Origin: Terribacillus sp. DMT04
GTDB lineage: Bacteria; Bacillota; Bacilli; Bacillales; Amphibacillaceae
DNA length: 64,000 nucleotides
Assembly: GCF_019056395.1 (NCBI RefSeq)
Contig: NZ_CP077639.1
Coordinates: forward strand, 136,001 to 200,000
Direction: 5' to 3'
In this document: piece after piece, positions 23,270 to 64,000 of the stretch
How positions within the stretch are numbered: the first letter of the stretch is position 1
Layout of the letters: the number at the start of each line of letters is the position of its first letter
The notes under the pieces: generated by a model
Told to the model about the DNA's origin: nothing
Database searches by the model: none
The model's input: the letters and a program-made list of their open reading frames with translations, nothing else
Translations under genes and position numbers: made by a program

Positions 23270-26200
23270 TTGACAGGTCAAGTAGTTCAGTATGGACGAC
23301 ACCGCCAGCGCAGAAGCTATGCACGTATTAGTGAAGTGCTAGAGTTACCGAATCTTATCGAGATTCAAACCGCTTCTTATGAATGGTTCTTAGAAGAAGG
23401 ATTGCGAGAAATGTTCCAGGATATTTCCCCGATTGAGGATTTTGCGGGTAATCTATCTCTGGAATTTGTCGACTATAGCCTTGGCGAACCGAAGTATCCA
23501 GTAGATGAAGCGAAAGAAAGAGACGTTACCTATAACGCTCCACTTCGTGTGAAGGTCCGTTTGTTGAATAACGAAACAGGCGAAGTGAAAGAACAAGAAG
23601 TATTCATGGGTGACTTCCCATTAATGACTGATACAGGTACGTTCGTCATTAATGGTGCGGAACGTGTTATCGTTTCTCAGCTTGTTCGCTCCCCTAGTGT
23701 TTATTTCAGTGAAAAAGTTGACAAGAACGGAAAACGCGGTCATACAGCAACTGTAATTCCTAACCGTGGTGCATGGCTGGAATTTGAAACAGATGCGAAA
23801 GACGTTGTACACGTACGTATTGACCGTACTCGTAAACTGCCAATCACTGTATTGCTTCGTGCACTTGGATTCGGAACTGACCAAGAAATCATTGATTTAA
23901 TTGGTGAGAACGAATACCTACGTAACACTTTGGAGAAAGACAATACAGAAACAACAGAAAAAGCATTGCTTGAGATTTATGAGCGTCTTCGCCCAGGTGA
24001 GCCGCCAACAGTAGAGAATGCAAAAAGCTTGCTTGTTTCTCGTTTCTTTGATCCAAAACGTTATGACCTAGCGCATGTAGGTCGTTACAAAATGAATAAA
24101 AAACTTAACATCGCAAACCGTCTTTTCAACCAAACTTTGGCTGAGCCAGTTGTTGATGAAGAGACAGGCGAAGTGCTTGCTCAAAAAGGCGATAAATTAG
24201 ACCGTCGTTTGCTTGATAAGATCCTTCCTTACTTGGACGGAACAAACAGTAAATTCGGTGAAAATGTTGTTGAACCTCATGATGGTGTTGTAGAAGAGCC
24301 AGTTGTAGTGCAGACAATTAAAATCGTCGATCCTACAGATCCTGAAGGTGAGCGCACATTAAATGTCACTGGTAACGCTACGGTTGATGACAGCATCAAG
24401 AACCTTGATCCTGCTGATATCTTATCTGCTGTCAGCTACTTCTTTAACTTATTGTATGAAGTAGGCGGCACAGATGACATTGACCATCTTGGTAACAGAA
24501 GATTGCGTTCTGTTGGTGAGCTGCTTCAGAACCAGTTCCGTATCGGTCTATCTCGTATGGAGCGTGTGGTAAGAGAGCGTATGTCTATCCAAGACACTTC
24601 TTCCATCACACCGCAGCAGCTGATCAATATTCGTCCGGTAATTGCATCAATTAAAGAGTTCTTTGGTAGCTCTCAGCTTTCCCAGTTCATGGACCAAACG
24701 AATCCGCTTGGCGAATTGACGCATAAACGTCGTCTTTCTGCTTTGGGACCTGGTGGACTTACGCGGGAACGTGCCGGCTTTGAGGTTCGTGACGTACATT
24801 ACTCCCACTATGGAAGAATGTGTCCGATCGAAACGCCAGAGGGTCCGAACATTGGTTTGATTAACTCACTATCCTCTTATGCGAAAGTGAATAAATTTGG
24901 ATTTATCGAAACGCCTTACCGCCGCGTTGATCCAGAAACAAACCGTGTTACAGAACATATCGACTACCTAACTGCTGATGAGCAAGATAACTATGTTATC
25001 GCACAGGCAAACTCTCCGTTACTAGAAGACGGAAGCTTCGAGAACGAAGAAGTAGTTGCTCGTTTCCGTGAGGAGAATACAATCGTAGGCCGTGATCGCG
25101 TTGATTACATGGACGTATCACCGAAGCAGGTTGTATCTGCCGCAACGGCGTGTATTCCTTTCTTGGAAAACGATGACTCCAACCGTGCACTAATGGGTGC
25201 GAACATGCAGCGACAAGCAGTACCGTTGATGCAGCCAGAAGCGCCAATCGTTGGTACGGGTATGGAATATGTATCTGGTAAAGACTCCGGTGCAGCTGTT
25301 ATCTGCCGCGAAGACGGTATCGTAGAGCGTGTAGAAGCAAAAGAAATCTTTGTACGCCGCGTTACAGAAGTTGGCGGCAGTGAAGTAAAAGGCGATACAG
25401 ACCGTTATCGTTTGCAGAAGTTTAAACGTTCCAACCAAGGAACTTGTTATAACCAGCGTCCAATCGTAAGTGTTGGCGACCGCGTCACAAAAGGAGAAAT
25501 CCTTGCTGACGGACCTTCTATGGAAGATGGAGAGCTTGCACTTGGTCGTAACGTACTAGTTGCCTTCATGACATGGGAAGGTTATAACTACGAGGATGCG
25601 ATCATCATGAGTGAACGCCTTGTAAAAGATGATGTTTATACATCTATCCACATCGAGGAGTACGAATCAGAAGCTCGTGATACGAAGCTTGGACCAGAAG
25701 AAATCACTCGCGATATCCCTAACGTTGGGGAAGACGCACTGAAGAATCTTGACGAGCGCGGTATCATCCGTGTCGGTGCTGAGGTTTCCGATGGTGATTT
25801 GCTTGTTGGTAAAGTAACACCTAAAGGCGTAACAGAGCTTTCTGCTGAAGAACGTCTATTGCACGCAATCTTCGGTGAAAAGGCTCGTGAAGTACGTGAT
25901 ACTTCCCTTCGTGTACCACATGGTGCCGGCGGTATTGTCTTGGATGTTAAAATCTTCAACCGTGAAGATGGCGATGAGCTTCCTCCAGGTGTAAACCAGC
26001 TAGTGCGTGCTTACATCGTTCAGAAACGTAAGATTTCTGAAGGGGATAAGATGGCCGGACGTCACGGTAACAAAGGTGTTATCTCTAAAATCCTTCCAGA
26101 AGAGGATATGCCGTTCATGCCAGACGGCACACCAGTTGATATCATGCTTAACCCACTAGGGGTACCATCTCGTATGAATATCGGTCAGGTGTTTGAGCTT

Positions 26201-53721: not shown

Positions 53722-53785
53722 GTTTATGGCATTTTATTTCTATACCACGATTAGCCCCGGAAGACTAATTGTGTAGAATAATAAA
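53722..53785 (+). promoter_or_regulatory. Candidate L13 ribosomal protein leader
   Basis: The 5' UTR contains ATTAG-CCCCGGAAGA-CTAAT (about 53750-53769) following TTTATGGC ... CCACG. Position and the CCGGAAGACTAAT-type hairpin match the L13 leader family of Bacillales, in which L13 is thought to repress its own mRNA. The match is by recall of the family, not by a covariance search. Confidence 0.6.
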
Positions 53786-53819
53786 TGAACGATTTAAATC
53801 GAAAATTGGAGGAACTGAC

Positions 53820-54257
53820 ATGCGTACAACATTCATGGCGAACGAAAGCAATATCGAACGCAAATGGCTTGTTGTGGATGCAGAAGGCCAAACTCTTGGT
53901 CGTCTTGCAAGTGAAGTTGCTGCTATCCTTCGCGGTAAGCACAAACCAACTTACACTCCACATGCCGACACTGGTGACAATGTAATCATCATCAACGCTG
54001 AAAAAATTCAACTTACTGGTAACAAACTTGCTGACAAGATTTATTACCGTCACTCTAACCACCCAGGTGGTTTGAAACAGCGTACTGCTGATGAAATGCG
54101 TACAAAATACCCTGAGCAAATGCTTGAGCTTGCTGTTAAAGGCATGCTTCCTAAGGGTCCACTTGCACGTAAAATGATTAAAAAGCTTCACGTATACCGT
54201 GGCGCTGAGCACAAACACCAAGCACAACAACCAGAAGCTTACACGCTTCGCGGTTAA
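53820..54257 (+). CDS. rplM: 50S ribosomal protein L13
   Basis: A 145-residue early-assembly protein. [33 protein letters not shown] (about residues 16-48) and the [31 protein letters not shown] block are conserved. The ATG at 53820 is preceded by TTGGAGGAAC and yields [15 protein letters not shown] as in relatives; longer frames enter the leader. Confidence 0.97.
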
Positions 54258-54277
54258 TAAAAAGGAGGTAAACGATA

Positions 54278-54670
54278 GTGGCACAAGTACAATACTACGG
54301 CACCGGTCGCCGTAAAAGCTCTACTGCCCGCGTACGTCTAGTACCAGGCACAGGTCAAGTAACAGTAAACAACCGTAGTGCGGAAGATTACTTCCCATAC
54401 GAAACGCTTCGTACAATCATCAACCAACCACTAGTTGCAACAGAAACTGCTGGTAACTACGACGTTCTAATCAACGTTAGTGGTGGTGGATTCACAGGAC
54501 AAGCAGGTGCTATCCGTCACGGTGTATCTCGTGCGCTTCTACAAGCGGACCCAGAATACCGCGGAACACTTAAAGCAGCTGGCTTCCTTACTCGTGACGC
54601 ACGTATGAAAGAACGTAAAAAATACGGTCTTAAAGGTGCACGTCGCGCTCCACAGTTCTCAAAACGTTAA
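54278..54670 (+). CDS. rpsI: 30S ribosomal protein S9
   Basis: A 130-residue head protein whose C-terminal tail, ending QFSKR, reaches the P-site tRNA anticodon. [19 protein letters not shown] (about residues 5-23) and the [15 protein letters not shown] motif are present. GTG start at 54278, 10 bases after AAGGAGG. Confidence 0.98.
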
Positions 54671-54757
54671 TCAATTCCTTATTGCATCAACGTTTATACG
54701 AGATCTTTGGTTCAAGTTGGTTCAGATTATCAACATGATAAAGCACTCAATAGATTT

Positions 54758-54788
54758 AAAGCATCAGCATCTTGCTGGTGCTTTTTTT
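54758..54788 (+). terminator. Terminator of rplM-rpsI
   Basis: AAAGCATCAGCA pairs with TGCTGGTGCTTT (one G-T) and is followed by TTTTTT. Confidence 0.93.
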
Positions 54789-55001
54789 CTGGCATAAATT
54801 CCAGGTAGTAGTCATGGTGTGAATATTAATATGTTCTAGTCGCTTTGAGACATAGGCAATATCTATATCTTATACAGATAGAGATGAAGCAAGAGTATGT
54901 GTAAGTCATCAATTATGTTGCTGTTATACACCGAAGTAAGAAGTAAGGCTTCATAATTAAGTGGTAATCAAACATTCCACTAGATTTAAATGCAAGAGAT
55001 A

Positions 55002-55053
55002 AAGAAAAAAGGGTCTGTTCTTTCAATTATGAAGGAGCAGACCCTTTTTTCTT
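55002..55053. terminator. Orphan bidirectional terminator
   Basis: AAGAAAAAAGGGTCTG faces CAGACCCTTTTTTCTT, with further pairing inside (GTTC/GAGC region). Runs of A and T on both sides allow termination in both directions. No gene abuts it on either side. Confidence 0.85.
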
Positions 55054-55329
55054 AATTTCGCTTGAATGGACCTTGAGGTGCTAGAGGACTATTTCTTTAT
55101 TACGAACAGCATAAGAGCGGGAGACTATCAGCAAAAGTAAGATACTAAAGGTTTCTGGTGATGCGATTACATTCAAAGATTAAGTCACATTAGTTTTGGC
55201 ACCAACGAACATGTGTCTTTGCTGCTTTTATTAATAACCCGGAATGCATCTCATTGACATCTATCTAAAAAATCATAAGATAACCTATAAAGTGACAAAA
55301 AATTGACCGTTGCAATGGCCATTTTTCAA

Positions 55330-55343
55330 AGGAAGCGTTTACA
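55330..55343 (+). promoter_or_regulatory. Candidate cre (CcpA) site upstream of the PTS regulator
   Basis: AGGAAGCGTTTACA matches 12 of 14 positions of the cre consensus TGWAANCGNTNWCA. A -10-like TATAAA at 55357-55362 lies just downstream, so CcpA bound here would cover the -35 region and repress the cassette when glucose is present. Confidence 0.65.
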
Positions 55344-55381
55344 TAAAATGCGTTACTATAAATACAGGGGAGGCAAAACTG

Positions 55382-56872
55382 ATGAGTTCAAAAGATAATC
55401 GCGAACAAGATCTGTTATTGTTCCTATCAAAGAAGCAGGATTATGTTACTTCGAATGAGCTGGTAGATGAACTGGATGTATCACAGAAAACAGTCTACCG
55501 CTTGATAAAGAAAATCAACGATGAGTCCATGGGCAGTCCCTTAATTTTATCAGAAAGAGGGAGGGGTTATCGATTAGATTATGAAAACTTCATTAACTAC
55601 CAAAAAAGTAACAAGTTTCACGAGAAACAATTTTCGCCAGATGAGAGACGCAAACGTATTATGGAAGAACTGCTGCTGTCATCCCCTAAGCCAATAAGTA
55701 TTTACCACTTGTTTAGTGACTACTATGTAGGAGAATCTGTCATTTTTAATGATGAACAAATAATGAGCAAAGAACTGAAAAAGTACAACTTAGTATTAGA
55801 ACGGAAAGATCGGAAGCTGGTCATACTTGGAGAAGAAACTGAAATCAGAAAGGCGATCAAGCATGTTAATGAGATATTTAACACGATTGATCTTGATGAT
55901 TTGAAACGAAATCAAGAACTTAATTTCAATAAATACGATGTGTTGTTTATATTAGGGCAGTTAAGGGACATGGAGAAGGTTTTAGACAGTACGATTCCTT
56001 ATCCGTATAACGTAAACATTTTCTCTCACTTATATATACTGCTGAGCCGCTTAAGAAAAGTGCCTGCTTTATTCTTTATTGATAAGGTTGCTGATGAAGA
56101 AATAGAAAATATGAAAAGAGACACAATTTTGTATACGGTTGCAAAAGGTGTTGTGCACAATACACAAACGTATCTAAACAGCTCTCTGCCGGATATTGAG
56201 ATCTACTTTCTCTATCAGTATTTAGTTTCATCGAGAATGCAGGGCTCTGGTGGAAAGACCTCTACCTTTTCACCAGAGGTTATTCAAGTGACTGATGCGT
56301 ATATTGAAGGTATGCGTGGCTACTTGGGGATCGATATAGAAAGCGGATCTATTTTCACTGATTTAGCCAACCATATTAAACCGATGCTGAATAGATTGGA
56401 ATATAAGATTCGTACGAAGAACAGTTTGTTAAATCAAATTAAAGCCAACTATGGGGATGTATTTTCAGGAGTTGCCAAGGTCTCTCAATTTGTAAGTGAG
56501 AAATTCGATCTGCCGGCTATCAATGATGATGAAAATGGTTTTATTACACTTTATTTTGCAAAAGTCATTGTAACAGGTCAGTATCAGCGCCCGATAAAAA
56601 CATTGATTATGTGCACGACAGGTATTGGTACGTCAGAGCTTCTAAAAGCTAAGGTATCAAGAAAATTTCCTGAGCTGGAAATCGTGGATGTAGTAGCTTC
56701 GCGAAATATGCAGATGGTAAATGAAAAGTACGCAGATGCTGAATTGATTCTAAGTACGGTCCACTTAAAAGACAATGTACCAATGCACCAATTACTGGTG
56801 AGTGCAATGTTTACGATGGATGATCAAAAGCGGCTGCAGAGAAAGATAGAGGAAATTTATCATGCAGGATGA
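55382..56872 (+). CDS. PRD-domain transcriptional regulator (MtlR/LicR-like) with EIIB domain
   Basis: A 496-residue DNA-binding regulator controlled by PTS phosphorylation. An HTH_11 domain (residues 8-65, TSNELVDELDVSQKTVYRLI) and a probable second winged helix (about 80-165) are followed by PRD1 (about 180-290, His216 in FSHLYILLSRLR), PRD2 (about 300-395, His331 in LANHIKPMLNRL) and an EIIB-like domain with Cys411 in CTTGIGTSELL. It lacks the usual C-terminal EIIA domain; that function appears to be the next gene. Tyr391 sits where many PRD2 domains have a second His. It is a DNA-binding activator, not an RNA antiterminator. The ATG at 55382 follows GGGGAGG by 8 bases. Confidence 0.88.
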   Translation: MSSKDNREQDLLLFLSKKQDYVTSNELVDELDVSQKTVYRLIKKINDESMGSPLILSERGRGYRLDYENFINYQKSNKFHEKQFSPDERRKRIMEELLLSSPKPISIYHLFSDYYVGESVIFNDEQIMSKELKKYNLVLERKDRKLVILGEETEIRKAIKHVNEIFNTIDLDDLKRNQELNFNKYDVLFILGQLRDMEKVLDSTIPYPYNVNIFSHLYILLSRLRKVPALFFIDKVADEEIENMKRDTILYTVAKGVVHNTQTYLNSSLPDIEIYFLYQYLVSSRMQGSGGKTSTFSPEVIQVTDAYIEGMRGYLGIDIESGSIFTDLANHIKPMLNRLEYKIRTKNSLLNQIKANYGDVFSGVAKVSQFVSEKFDLPAINDDENGFITLYFAKVIVTGQYQRPIKTLIMCTTGIGTSELLKAKVSRKFPELEIVDVVASRNMQMVNEKYADAELILSTVHLKDNVPMHQLLVSAMFTMDDQKRLQRKIEEIYHAG

Positions 56873-57296
56873 CTCTTTCTATCAGATTTATTTTAACGCT
56901 GCGTTAAGTACCAAGAATGAGGTATTTGCCTTCCTTTCAAACGTTGCTTGGTTAGACGATCCTTTGCAAAAAGAAGCTATTGTGAAGCAATTAATACAAA
57001 GAGAAGGACAAGGGAGCATGTTGATTGCAGAACATGTTGTGCTGCCGCATATCGAGAGCAATAAGGTGGAGAAAAGCCAAATCATCCTTATCCGTTTATT
57101 ACATTCAATAGAATTCTGGGATTCGGAGACAAAAGATATACGGCTAATAATTGGAGTTTTACTGAAAGAAAACGAAGATGTACAAATAAAGCAAAAAATA
57201 GCTTCATTCATGCGAACGTTAGCGGATGAAGAATATGTAGACCAGTTGCTGACGATTGAGAAAGAAGCCGACTTTTATAAACAAATCAAAAGATAA
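56862..57296 (+). CDS. EIIA-like PTS protein, split partner of the regulator
   Basis: A 144-residue protein with the fold signature of fructose/mannitol-type EIIA. His63 in VVLPHIES is the likely phosphorylation site. It overlaps the regulator gene by 11 bases, and in LicR/MtlR-type regulators an EIIA domain occupies exactly this C-terminal position, so this gene most likely encodes the regulator's detached EIIA domain. A second, more canonical EIIA is encoded downstream, so this copy is probably regulatory rather than for transport. Confidence 0.8.
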   Translation: MQDDSFYQIYFNAALSTKNEVFAFLSNVAWLDDPLQKEAIVKQLIQREGQGSMLIAEHVVLPHIESNKVEKSQIILIRLLHSIEFWDSETKDIRLIIGVLLKENEDVQIKQKIASFMRTLADEEYVDQLLTIEKEADFYKQIKR

Positions 57297-57310
57297 CAGG
57301 AGGAATAATT

Positions 57311-57628
57311 ATGAAAATCGTTGGAGTAGCAGCATGTACAGTAGGTATTGCTCACACATATATTGCGCAGGAGAAATTAGAGAACGCAGGCAAGAAAGCA
57401 GGCTATGAGATTTCTGTGGAAACACAAGGAACAATCGGAACGGAAAATGAATTGACGCAGGAACAAATAGCGGAAGCGGACATCGTGATTATAGCTGCAG
57501 ACGTAAAAATTGCAGGAAGAGAACGTTTTGAAGGAAAGCGTGTCATTGAAGTTCCAACAGACGTAGCTGTTAAATCACCAAATAAATTAATAGCTAAGGC
57601 AGCAGAAGTTATCGCACAGCCGAAATAA
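57311..57628 (+). CDS. PTS fructose-family EIIB component
   Basis: A 105-residue cytoplasmic EIIB. The active-site loop AACTVGIAHTYIAQEKLE (residues 8-25) holds the phosphocysteine Cys9 followed by the family GIAHT motif; most relatives read CPTGIAHT, here CTVGIAHT. VETQGTIGTENELT and ADIVIIAADVKIAGRERF are typical of fructose-class IIB. It would pass phosphate from EIIA to the incoming sugar bound by the EIIC. AGGAGGAA precedes the ATG, 14 bases after the previous gene. Confidence 0.9.
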   Translation: MKIVGVAACTVGIAHTYIAQEKLENAGKKAGYEISVETQGTIGTENELTQEQIAEADIVIIAADVKIAGRERFEGKRVIEVPTDVAVKSPNKLIAKAAEVIAQPK

Positions 57629-57656
57629 CCTTCTTAAGAGATGGGAGAGAGAAAGC

Positions 57657-58109
57657 ATGGAAGTAAAAGATATTGTAGATTTAAACACAATCAGAACCAA
57701 TATGAAAGCTAAGAGTAAGGAAGAAGCATTAAGAGAATTAGCAGATGTCCTCTTGCAAAATGAGTATATCACGGATGTGGAAGTGTTTCTGAAGGATATT
57801 TATGAAAGAGAAGCAATGGGTCAGACAGGAATCGGTAATTTTATTGCAATTCCTCATGGTAATAGTGAATCTGTTGAAAAGATAGGCGTAGCTATTGGAG
57901 TCACGCAGGACGAGATTCCTTGGGAGACGCTCGATGACAACGGAGTGAAGGGAATCATTCTTTTCGCTGTCGGAAAAGAAAATGACGGTGCGCAGACACA
58001 CCTGAAGTTATTATCACTGTTTGCAAGAAAATTAGGAAATGATGAAGTTATTAAAAACTTGCTGCAGTCAAAAGACGCTGCGGGCGTTAAAGAAGCACTC
58101 TGCAGCTAA
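57657..58109 (+). CDS. PTS fructose-family EIIA component
   Basis: A 150-residue EIIA that accepts phosphate from HPr. His67 in GIGNFIAIPHGNS (residues 58-70) is the phosphorylated histidine, and DDNGVKGIILFAVGKENDGAQTHLKLLSLFARKL is the conserved second half. It is the transport EIIA of the cassette, distinct from the EIIA-like partner of the regulator. A 179-base gap follows before the EIIC gene. Confidence 0.92.
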   Translation: MEVKDIVDLNTIRTNMKAKSKEEALRELADVLLQNEYITDVEVFLKDIYEREAMGQTGIGNFIAIPHGNSESVEKIGVAIGVTQDEIPWETLDDNGVKGIILFAVGKENDGAQTHLKLLSLFARKLGNDEVIKNLLQSKDAAGVKEALCS

Positions 58110-58288
58110 AAGGTGAGGGACTTTTATGTCCTTCGTCAGCAGCAGGAAATCGGGTTACCCTTACAGATCCATTCAAATGTAATTATGCATGATACATCTA
58201 GCACCAGAGACATTTGTCATCCTGACCTTCTCTGCCAAGCCTTCTAACGTCATAGGGTTGAGGTGCTGAATATATTGGAGGGTAGAAA

Positions 58289-59389
58289 ATGAGTAAACTA
58301 AAAAATTTAAATCTAAAAGGCCATTTATTGACCGCGATATCGTATTTGATTCCAGTAGTTTGCGGAGCGGGTTTTTTAATAGCACTTGGAATGGCAATGG
58401 GCGGTACGAACCAAACAGACTTGGTTCAAGGTGAATTCAACATTTGGGATGCGCTGGCTACGATGGGTGCAGCCGGTTTAGGCTTATTACCAGTCGTTAT
58501 CTCAACAGGTATTTCCTATTCCATTGCAGGTAAACCAGGTATAGCGCCAGGGTTCATTATTGGTTTGACTGCCAATGCAATTGGTGCTGGTTTTATTGGT
58601 GGTATTCTAGGTGGTTACTTAGCAGGTTATCTAGCAGTCGCAATCTTAAAGTATCTTAAAATTCCTAAGTGGGCGAAGGGATTAATGCCAACCTTAATTA
58701 TTCCATTTTTAACCTCCATTATTGGCGGTTTGATCATGGTTTATATAATTGGTATTCCGATAGCAGGTTTAACGTCCTTACTAACAAATGCTCTAAATAA
58801 TCTGGGATCTTCCTCGCTGCTTGTGTTTGGCGGAATTATAGGAGTTCTGAGTGGAGTTGACTTTGGAGGGCCAATCAACAAAACTGTGTTTGCCTTTGTA
58901 TTGACGATGCAGGCAGAGGGAGTTAATGGTCCAATTACTGCATTGCAGCTAGTAAATACAGCAACACCAATCGGGTTTGGCTTAGCTTACTTTGTAGCGA
59001 AATTATTTGGAAAAAGAATTTATACAAAAGTAGAAACGGAAACGTTAAAATCAGCGGTACCAATGGGTTTTATTAATATCGTGGAAGGCGTCATTCCGAT
59101 TGTTATGAATGATATCGTTCGGTGTGTGGTCGCAACAGCTATTGGTGGAGCGGCCGGCGGTGCAGTATCGATGGTGCTGGGAGCAGATGCAACGGTACCT
59201 TTCGGAGGGGTACTGATGTTACCGACTATGTCGCAGCCATGGACAGGGGCTGTCGCAATCTTGGTCAATGTTGTTGTAACAGCAGTAGCCTTGGCCGTGA
59301 TTAAAAAGAATGTGGCGGCAGAGGAAGCAGATATTGAGACTGAATTGGAAGAAGATGATATTGATTTAGCTGATATTAAGATTACTTAA
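58289..59389 (+). CDS. PTS fructose-family EIIC permease
   Basis: A 366-residue membrane permease with about nine hydrophobic helices. IAGKPGIAPGFIIGL (about residues 78-92), SGVDFGGPINKTVFAF (about 189-204) and the MGFINIVEGVIPI substrate-site motif (about 257-269) are hallmarks of fructose-class EIIC. The last 25 residues are strongly acidic. It has no fused A or B domain, matching the separate genes upstream. GGAGGGTAG precedes the ATG. Confidence 0.92.
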   Translation: MSKLKNLNLKGHLLTAISYLIPVVCGAGFLIALGMAMGGTNQTDLVQGEFNIWDALATMGAAGLGLLPVVISTGISYSIAGKPGIAPGFIIGLTANAIGAGFIGGILGGYLAGYLAVAILKYLKIPKWAKGLMPTLIIPFLTSIIGGLIMVYIIGIPIAGLTSLLTNALNNLGSSSLLVFGGIIGVLSGVDFGGPINKTVFAFVLTMQAEGVNGPITALQLVNTATPIGFGLAYFVAKLFGKRIYTKVETETLKSAVPMGFINIVEGVIPIVMNDIVRCVVATAIGGAAGGAVSMVLGADATVPFGGVLMLPTMSQPWTGAVAILVNVVVTAVALAVIKKNVAAEEADIETELEEDDIDLADIKIT

Positions 59390-59416
59390 TACAAACAATT
59401 ATTCTGGTTGTAATCT

Positions 59417-59430
59417 TGAAAGCGTTTAAT
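59417..59430 (+). promoter_or_regulatory. Second candidate cre site, before the epimerase gene
   Basis: TGAAAGCGTTTAAT matches 12 of 14 cre positions, failing only at the last two. It lies in the 82-base gap between the EIIC and epimerase genes, where it could act as a roadblock or control a local promoter. Confidence 0.5.
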
Positions 59431-59471
59431 ATTCTGGAAAAAGGTATAAATATGAGGAGGATAATGAAGAA

Positions 59472-60167
59472 ATGAAAAAAGTCGAGTTTTCACCGTCATT
59501 GATGACAATGGACTTAGATAAGTTTAAAGAACAAATCACTTTTCTAAATGATCATGCAGGTTCCTATCATATTGATATTATGGACGGCCACTATGTACCG
59601 AATATAACGTTATCGCCGTGGTTTATTTCCGAAGTACGTAAAATAAGCAATCTGCCCATGTCTGTTCATCTAATGGTTACAGATCCCAGCTACTGGGTGC
59701 AGCAATTAGTGGATATGGAGTGCGAATGGATCTGCATGCATGCAGAGGTACTGGACGGGTTGGCTTTTCGGCTGATTGACCAAATACATGATGCTGGCCT
59801 AAAAGCGGGAGTTGTATTAAATCCTGAAACACCAATTGAGACAATCTTCCCTTATATTGAGTTGGTAGATAAAATAACAATCATGACAGTTGATCCAGGT
59901 TTTGCCGGTCAGCGATTCATCGAAAGCACACTTGATAAAATTGTGGCATTAAGAGAACTGCGGTCAGACAAAGGTTATCAGTATGTCATTGAAATGGATG
60001 GGTCGTCTAACCGGAAATCATTTAAGAAAATTGATGCTGCCGGTCCTGACATTTATATTGTCGGACGCAGTGGTTTATTTGGATTAGATGATGATATAGC
60101 AAAATCATGGGATATTATGAAGAAAGACTATGAGGAAATGACTGGGAAAGCAATACCTGTAAGCTAA
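59472..60167 (+). CDS. alsE: D-allulose-6-phosphate 3-epimerase (AlsE-like)
   Basis: A 231-residue TIM-barrel epimerase. Over most of its length it matches E. coli AlsE more closely than ribulose-5-phosphate epimerase, for example FSPSLMTMDLDKFKEQI, HIDIMDGHYVPNITLSPWF and NPETPIETI. Metal and catalytic residues are His33, Asp35, His66 and Asp176 (EMDGSSN). It would convert D-allulose 6-phosphate to fructose 6-phosphate. The ATG at 59472 is 10 bases from AGGAGGAT; a three-codon frame at 59464 ends in the overlapping ATGA. It completes the PTS cassette and is followed by a terminator. Confidence 0.85.
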   Translation: MKKVEFSPSLMTMDLDKFKEQITFLNDHAGSYHIDIMDGHYVPNITLSPWFISEVRKISNLPMSVHLMVTDPSYWVQQLVDMECEWICMHAEVLDGLAFRLIDQIHDAGLKAGVVLNPETPIETIFPYIELVDKITIMTVDPGFAGQRFIESTLDKIVALRELRSDKGYQYVIEMDGSSNRKSFKKIDAAGPDIYIVGRSGLFGLDDDIAKSWDIMKKDYEEMTGKAIPVS

Positions 60168-60245
60168 ATCTAGAATACGTATGAAATACTCTCAAAAGGA
60201 TTAGACTGACCTAGCGATGTTAGACATAAATAAAACGCCCTTATA

Positions 60246-60295
60246 AGGCTGCCATGCTACCATATTCTTTGGTACGTGGTAGCCTAATTTTTATT
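60246..60295 (+). terminator. Terminator of the PTS-epimerase cassette
   Basis: GGCTGCCA (60247-60254) pairs with TGGTAGCC (60277-60284, one G-T), with CTACC/GGTA inside, followed by TAATTTTTATT. Confidence 0.85.
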
Positions 60296-63717: not shown

Positions 63718-64000
63718 TTAATATCCGTAATATTGGTTATTATAGTACGGATTGTATGGAGGATAGTAAGGCGTAGGCTGGTTATAATAATTCGGATACA
63801 GCAAGCTGCTGCCAAGCAGGCCGCCTACAACACCGCCTAGGAATGGTCCGCCGTATCCATAGCCATAGCCAAAACCTGGGCGGCCGTAGCCAAACCCTGG
63901 ACGACCATAACCGAAACCTGGGCGGCCGAAGCCAAAGCCGGGGCGTCGACGGTATTCATCTGTATGAACAGGATAAGAATAAGACACTTGCTGATTTGTT
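63718..64000 (-). CDS. Gly/Tyr-rich repeat protein, 5' end outside window
   Basis: At least 94 residues are encoded and the frame is still open at the window edge (TNQQVSYSYPV ... precedes a GTG at 63987), so the true start is probably outside. The middle is a tandem octapeptide repeat GRPGFGYG, encoded by 24-base DNA repeats at about 63855-63945, followed by GGPFLGGVVGGLLGSSLL and a tail rich in Pro, Tyr and Asn. Such low-complexity proteins are common in Bacillus spore coats and exosporium or other surface structures; this role is a guess. Confidence 0.75.
   Translation of the reverse strand, partial: TNQQVSYSYPVHTDEYRRRPGFGFGRPGFGYGRPGFGYGRPGFGYGYGYGGPFLGGVVGGLLGSSLLYPNYYNQPTPYYPPYNPYYNNQYYGY
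63855..63945 (-). repeat. 24-base tandem repeats encoding GRPGFGYG
   Basis: Three to four imperfect 24-base units encode consecutive GRPGFGYG/GRPGFGFG octapeptides. The silent differences between units suggest an old or purified repeat rather than a very recent expansion. Confidence 0.8.

Follow-up and report, generated by a model that had tools for sequence, protein, structure and literature searches.

The stretch analysed here, called the window below, comprises 64,000 nucleotides of Terribacillus sp. DMT04 (contig NZ_CP077639.1, positions 136,001 to 200,000). Between positions 55382 and 60167 it contains a cassette of six genes, all on the plus strand, i.e. the genes for a PRD regulator, a second EIIA, the EIIB, EIIA and EIIC components of a phosphotransferase system (PTS), and an epimerase. 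A preliminary description of the window had proposed this gene set and order, and both are borne out by the open reading frames (ORFs) and by the family scores of the domain scans. The sugar taken up by the system may be D-allulose. The features of the cassette are as follows:

55254..55281, plus strand: weak candidate for a sigma-70-like promoter ahead of the regulator gene (TTGACA-16-TAAGAT, agreeing with the consensus at 10 of 12 positions)
55382..56872, plus strand: PRD-type transcriptional regulator with HTH_11, Mga, PRD1 (His216), PRD2 (His331) and an EIIB-like domain (Cys411)
56862..57296, plus strand: second EIIA, PtsN/EIIA-2 type (PTS_EIIA_2, 78.4 bits; His63)
57311..57628, plus strand: fructose-class EIIB (TIGR00829, 105 bits, cut-off 76.85; Cys9 in ACTVGIAHT)
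57657..58109, plus strand: fructose-class EIIA (TIGR00848, 129.6 bits, cut-off 103.5; His67)
58289..59389, plus strand: fructose-class EIIC, 366 amino acids (TIGR01427, 204.1 bits, cut-off 157.55)
59472..60167, plus strand: AlsE-family ketose-phosphate 3-epimerase, 231 amino acids (NF007266; long loop after beta-8 with Arg199)
60246..60285, plus strand: intrinsic terminator at the cassette end, 16-pair hairpin and U-rich tail (dG −25.6 kcal/mol, z −5.44)

The transporter is a fructose-class PTS (TC 4.A.2). EIIA, EIIB and EIIC exceed the cut-offs of TIGR00848, TIGR00829 and TIGR01427, respectively, and the phosphorylation sites are conserved among the related proteins, with His67 of EIIA present in 61 of 61 rows and Cys9 of EIIB in 68 of 69 aligned rows (conservation counts include the window, and the regulator rows are near-full-length). 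For EIIC, no Pfam-A match was obtained at E 0.01. His216, His331 and Cys411 of the regulator were kept in 57 of 57 rows, as was His63 of the second EIIA. The domain scans detected no EIIA domain in the regulator; its place is most likely taken by the separate second EIIA, which probably signals to the regulator. The start of its gene overlaps the end of the regulator gene by 11 bases, which suggests coupled translation. The layout of the six genes is operon-like and conserved as a unit, consistent with a single operon.

To classify the epimerase, we compared it with AlsE and Rpe. It reaches 378.4 bits with the model for D-allulose 6-phosphate 3-epimerase (NF007266, cut-off 271), but only 191.4 bits with the Rpe equivalog TIGR01163, which is below the cut-off of 212.6; the broader subfamily model NF004076 is passed with 188 versus 165 bits. 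The best solved structure by both sequence and fold is E. coli AlsE (PDB 3ct7), with 52% identity and a query TM-score of 0.87, whereas none of the Rpe structures listed exceeds 0.83. The preliminary description had noted the likeness to AlsE, but had limited it to the N-terminal and active-site segments; the alignment with 3ct7 spans residues 5-217, i.e. nearly the whole protein. In the tree, AlsE-like and Rpe rows separate at 100/100, with the epimerase on the AlsE side. An extra residue in the loop that follows beta-8 is present in all 70 AlsE-like rows, including the window, and in none of the 28 Rpe rows. According to Chan et al. 2008, this extra residue is reportedly tied to the preference for hexuloses over pentuloses, and AlsE is said to accept ribulose 5-phosphate as well. 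Membership in Rpe was rejected on score, loop length and tree, and the earlier assignment to AlsE stands, as judged from family score, loop length, tree and fold; a placement with Rpe, which the preliminary description had named as a refutation, was thus not observed. The cassette epimerases form one clade (100/99, and 100/100 in a second tree), which is distinct from the AlsE proteins of allose operons.

The distribution of the cassette was analysed in several collections of genomes. A scan of 84,980 species genomes for close relatives yielded 61 loci, all of them Bacilli by title, with environmental Bacillaceae as well as enterococci, staphylococci and streptococci among them. Since 55 of these 61 loci with a related epimerase contain all six genes, the arrangement is not due to chance. 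EIIB precedes EIIA in 43 of the 61 loci, as in the window, EIIA comes first in 8, and 8 more have an extra EIIB match. Six loci are incomplete: L025 and L036 are cut by contig ends, L038 and L063 have no recognisable second EIIA, and L073 and L075 lack both the regulator and the second EIIA. In a class-wide sample of Bacilli, an AlsE above the cut-off was found in 12 of 398 genomes, i.e. seven with the cassette, three with an E. coli-like allose ABC operon, and two (L113 and L114) with a PRD-type regulator; in a phylum sample, 3 of 398 genomes had such an AlsE. The cassette EIIC was detected at E≤1e-100 in exactly the seven class-sample genomes that contain the cassette (of 398). More distant EIICs of the phylum sample (four genomes, 41-44% identical) were considered as further members, but were taken as other PTSs on the tree.

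Within the genus of the window, the epimerase was found in 2 of 10 genomes; the other eight show only a 36-38% match, which falls with Rpe in the tree. The nearest named relative, from Terribacillus aidingensis, is 97% identical. The host genome has its own Rpe at C1:1453809 and, also elsewhere, one TalC, one transketolase and a FruA-type fructose EIIC with a better score than that of the cassette (386 versus 204 bits), so the cassette genes are additional.

Other pairings of AlsE with a PTS were also observed. L113 (5449-9774, scanned) and L114, which has the same layout, combine a PRD regulator with a fused EIIA, an ascorbate-type EIIC and an AlsE with the loop GNSGLF; the EIIC of L113 is 66% identical to that of the Klebsiella locus described below. 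On an Enterococcus raffinosus plasmid (L159:4996-9672), a mannose-family PTS, a galactitol-phosphate dehydrogenase-like gene, HxlB (6-phospho-3-hexuloisomerase), an SDR and AlsE lie in a row; they may represent a route for a hexitol (allitol-like) with AlsE as the final step.

It is mainly a locus in Klebsiella that keeps allulose ahead of a pentulose as the predicted substrate. This locus (L162:5966-10779 and L174) encodes a regulator of the LacI type, a PTS whose scanned EIIC is ascorbate-type, and an AlsE with the loop GTSGLF, followed by fructose-class EIIA, EIIB and EIIC. The fructose-class EIIC is 67% identical to that of the window and nests in the cassette EIIC clade (100/100), then with streptococcal EIICs (99/98), while the other EIICs compared, including those of an E. 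coli aldolase operon and the FruA-type protein of the host, are 34-45% identical. The EIIA shows a weaker resemblance (about 43% at the most). The Klebsiella AlsE, in contrast, lies outside the cassette epimerase clade in the tree; its identity to the three class-sample AlsE proteins encoded in allose ABC operons is 65, 63 and 59%, whereas its identity to the cassette epimerases does not exceed 54%. Neither a transketolase nor a TalC was found near it. The locus thus seems to be a chimera, in which a PTS of the cassette lineage moved into another phylum and was paired there with an ordinary AlsE.

The Klebsiella PTS DNA matches 1581 of 5426 E. coli genomes, with at most 22% of the query covered among the 15 matches listed, in the EIIA/EIIB part. 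These were considered as the same locus, but the two inspected turned out to be another operon, which also encodes a pair of ketose-bisphosphate aldolases, a ROK protein and an isomerase. In one of them, that of E. coli ATCC 11775 (L175:4299-11242), the operon lies between yicI and yicH and combines a BglG-type regulator and a fructose-class PTS with the two aldolases, the ROK protein and a lyxose/mannose isomerase; its EIIC is 39% identical to that of the window.

Taken together, these data lead to the following proposal. The fructose-class EIIA-EIIB-EIIC system would import and phosphorylate a D-ribo-configured ketose, most likely D-allulose, yielding D-allulose 6-phosphate. The AlsE-family enzyme would epimerise this product at C3 to D-fructose 6-phosphate, which would enter glycolysis. 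Via the PRD histidines and the EIIB-like cysteine, the second EIIA would inform the regulator of how far the PTS is phosphorylated, and the operon would be switched on while the sugar is transported. The gradings given here and below are matters of judgement, and D-allulose as substrate is a prediction that could equally well prove right or wrong. The suggestion of the preliminary description that allulose is the PTS substrate is thus plausible and favoured by the Klebsiella locus, but it is not established, given the pentose-phosphate neighbours, the arginine in the phosphate loop and the precedent of phosphorylation at C1 described in the following paragraphs.

Several observations weigh against allulose, and the Klebsiella pairing represents one locus in one species (three records, two inspected). 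We determined the neighbours of the cassette in 64 distinct related loci (the 61 loci and three from the class sample, without the window). A transketolase is present in 26 and a TalC-type transaldolase in 10 of them; fructose 6-phosphate needs neither enzyme, and thus both speak against allulose. In 25 of the 61 loci the transketolase gene lies downstream of the epimerase gene on the same strand, starting within 369 bases in 24 cases and 1.7 kb away in one. TalC is located between EIIC and the epimerase in three Enterococcus loci, and L030 has an RpiB gene 24 bases after the epimerase gene in addition to transketolase and TalC. The TalC neighbours would have fitted fructose 6-phosphate if they were fructose-6-phosphate aldolases; one member scanned does match TIGR00875, a model that is itself named fructose-6-phosphate aldolase. 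Transaldolases and fructose-6-phosphate aldolases differ in the residues E59/F131 versus Q59/Y131, a meaning with which the PDB title "transaldolase variant E60Q/F132Y" agrees. All 10 TalC neighbours have E59/F131, as in E. coli TalB, and not Q59/Y131 of FsaA, and this candidate explanation was rejected. In a transketolase tree built with a quick method (26 cassette and 21 other copies), the cassette label changes nine times, and seven of the changes are forced by starred branches. The transketolase thus seems to have been gained or lost by the cassette repeatedly, in a comparison that classed the 21 other copies without regard to their surroundings. The cassette of the window has neither a transketolase nor a TalC. 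Around other AlsE genes, no adjacent transketolase was found in any of 11 loci (L106, L108, L111, L113, L114, L115, L121, L159, L160, L161 and L162); L161 does contain a transketolase, which is split and belongs to another cluster 6.7 kb downstream. A Fisher test (26 of 64 versus 0 of 9) is not relied on, because it ignores kinship and the nine loci were entered by hand. In L058, the transketolase gene downstream of alsE is split into two ORFs, and is probably broken or affected by a sequencing error.

These neighbours would be explained if the PTS imported a pentulose (D-ribulose or D-xylulose) and phosphorylated it at C5, the epimerase turned ribulose 5-phosphate into xylulose 5-phosphate and back, and the carbon reached glycolysis through transketolase and transaldolase, which many relatives have on the operon. 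We regard this as possible, though doubtful. It would account for the apparent repeated recruitment of transketolase, for the RpiB gene in one related locus, and for TalC proteins that look like pentose-phosphate transaldolases, and a pentose is also the published prediction for SP1617-8-9 of Streptococcus pneumoniae (PMC3302838). The phosphate loop points in the same direction: where E. coli AlsE has T196, each of the 64 distinct cassette epimerases has an arginine (Arg199 in the window), which could shorten the substrate pocket, while the 11 other AlsE proteins read have S, T or N (6 of 6 and 5 of 5). If a small residue at this position is an AlsE-defining feature, as we infer, the cassette epimerases lack it. 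Arg199 belongs to a clade signature of 16 positions with a residue that is shared by at least 95% of the cassette rows and by none of six other AlsE proteins compared. The predicted model of the epimerase has a mean pLDDT of 86.4, but averages of 74-76 in the blocks of residues 191-210, the part that includes Arg199. Against a pentulose, the family score, the tree and the length of the loop all identify the epimerase as an AlsE, and a PTS of the same lineage stands beside an allose-operon-type AlsE, without a transketolase, in Klebsiella. In addition, S. pneumoniae TIGR4, which carries the cassette, did not grow on ribulose (PMC3302838, PMC2045101), although the operon may be silent there.

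It is rather unlikely, but would reconcile the evidence from the enzyme with that from the gene neighbours, that the PTS serves D-ribo ketoses in general and imports both D-allulose and D-ribulose. The epimerase subfamily, with its long AlsE loop and invariant arginine, would then be bifunctional, converting allulose 6-phosphate to fructose 6-phosphate as well as ribulose 5-phosphate to xylulose 5-phosphate, and lineages living on pentuloses would repeatedly have added transketolase, transaldolase or RpiB; this reading overlaps with those of allulose and pentulose and is not additional to them. A different ketose phosphate epimerised at C3 is less probable still, and we consider it unlikely. 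Candidates are D-sorbose/D-tagatose 6-phosphate or a heptulose, i.e. D-allo-heptulose converted to sedoheptulose 7-phosphate, the latter also using transketolase and transaldolase and thereby combining these enzymes with a long substrate pocket. However, no ketose-bisphosphate aldolase match was found in 14 representatives scanned of the 29 flank clusters that occur in at least three loci, the loop does not exceed that of E. coli AlsE in length, and D-allo-heptulose is very rare in nature, which counts against the heptulose. Very improbable, finally, is a PTS that makes a ketose 1-phosphate, with the epimerase outside the same linear pathway. The E. coli fructose PTS does produce fructose 1-phosphate (PMC9257026), and phosphorylation at C1 would argue against the proposed allulose pathway, because allulose 1-phosphate would not feed AlsE. 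Furthermore, a gene for a kinase of the 1-phosphofructokinase family is located about 1 kb upstream of the EIIB gene in L073 and L075. In L073, however, the kinase gene is part of a neighbouring galactitol-type PTS operon, together with a class II aldolase-type gene (L073:105-5418), and the ORF layout of L075 is the same. A relative of E. coli FruK was found in only 2 of 68 loci searched, and the better-scoring fructose EIIC encoded elsewhere in the host genome also argues against this function for the cassette. Moreover, EIIC and AlsE-family genes occur together in all seven EIIC-bearing Bacilli class-sample genomes and in all four EIIC-bearing records of a plasmid collection.

For comparison with known systems, the closest counterpart is the cassette SP1621-SP1616 of S. 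pneumoniae TIGR4, described as a PRD regulator with an EIIB domain, an Ntr-type EIIA, fructose-class EIIA, EIIB and EIIC, and an epimerase, and accompanied by the transketolase SP1615 (PMC3302838, PMC3534514, PMC2045101). Judged from the published gene list, the gene set is that of the window. The pneumococcal cassette differs in that EIIA precedes EIIB and a transketolase is included, whereas in the window EIIB comes first and the cassette has none. The streptococcal relatives L068 and L069 belong to the same epimerase clade and agree in gene order. The published description suggests a similar role of the second EIIA (PMC3302838). The TIGR4 cassette was predicted to carry pentoses; as ribulose did not support growth even of the wild type, a mutant showed no phenotype (PMC3302838). 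The region is also known as RD9, deletion of which attenuates virulence in mice (PMC2045101), and as AR9, with SP1616 listed as allulose-6-phosphate 3-epimerase (PMC3534514). The window therefore contains a further member of an already described cassette. The earlier remark that no well-characterised pathway has exactly this gene set is correct only with regard to the function, which is uncharacterised, as the gene set has been published for S. pneumoniae.

Three other systems share some elements with the window. Among proteins of solved structure, the AlsE encoded by the D-allose operon alsRBACEK-rpiB of E. coli is the closest to the epimerase (52% identity), but this operon has an ABC transporter, a kinase and RpiB instead of a PTS, and the loop of its AlsE reads GTSGLF rather than GRSGLF. 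The D-allose cluster lmo0734-0739 of Listeria monocytogenes has both a PTS gene and an AlsE-like epimerase, as in the window. There, lmo0735 and the AlsI-like isomerase gene lmo0736 are needed for growth on D-allose, while lmo0738 (annotated as beta-glucoside IIABC) is dispensable (PMC5893763). The cluster thus differs from the window in the type of PTS gene (beta-glucoside), in the need for an isomerase and in the substrate. The psicose locus KP1_RS12820-RS12850 of K. pneumoniae contains AlsE, ribokinase and permease genes, and deletion of the permease gene impairs growth on psicose (PMC6020474). As a locus for allulose (psicose) catabolism with an allulose-6-phosphate epimerase gene, it offers a precedent for the reading proposed for the window, but it relies on a permease, a ribokinase-type kinase and a DeoR-family regulator, and not on a PTS.

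Our literature searches, for which most subscription papers were out of reach, found no published test of the cassette on allulose and no demonstration of its sugar. The word allulose is absent from the main text of the pneumococcal transporter survey (PMC3302838), and for the pneumococcal cassette it is an obvious candidate sugar. The distribution of the cassette, the repeated association with transketolase, the arginine signature and the Klebsiella pairing were not met in print, although no literature search was aimed at these four points. The use of allulose via AlsE has reportedly been described by Ndjite et al. 2025, which may bear on the cassette. If the PTS does transport allulose, it would provide a kinase-free route from allulose to fructose 6-phosphate, and more bacteria would be expected to use a sweetener that is added to food.

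The boundaries of the cassette were also analysed. The promoter candidate is weak, as such sites were observed 16 times versus 18.3 expected from shuffles, i.e. they are not more common than by chance. A 20-pair terminator-like stem is located at 55004-55051, upstream of the cassette start. The gap between the EIIA and EIIC genes (58110-58288) comprises 179 bases; the remaining gaps in the cassette are 14, 28 and 82 bases long. A cre (CcpA) site was considered for the cassette, but matches with at most one mismatch occur in the window only at 23710 and 60644, both outside the cassette and below the number expected by chance; a resemblance with two mismatches spotted by eye was dropped.

The gene upstream of the cassette (54278-54670) was taken by eye for rpsI, and its relative in L034 matches S9. 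The cassette lies downstream of rplM-rpsI genes in the window (53769-55382) and in 4 of the 61 loci (L015, L018, L022 and L034; identified in L022 and L034), which suggests an old location or an insertion hot spot. Further downstream in the window, at 63718-63987 on the minus strand, an ORF of 89 residues is rich in Gly, Tyr and Pro and contains GRPGFGYG repeats.

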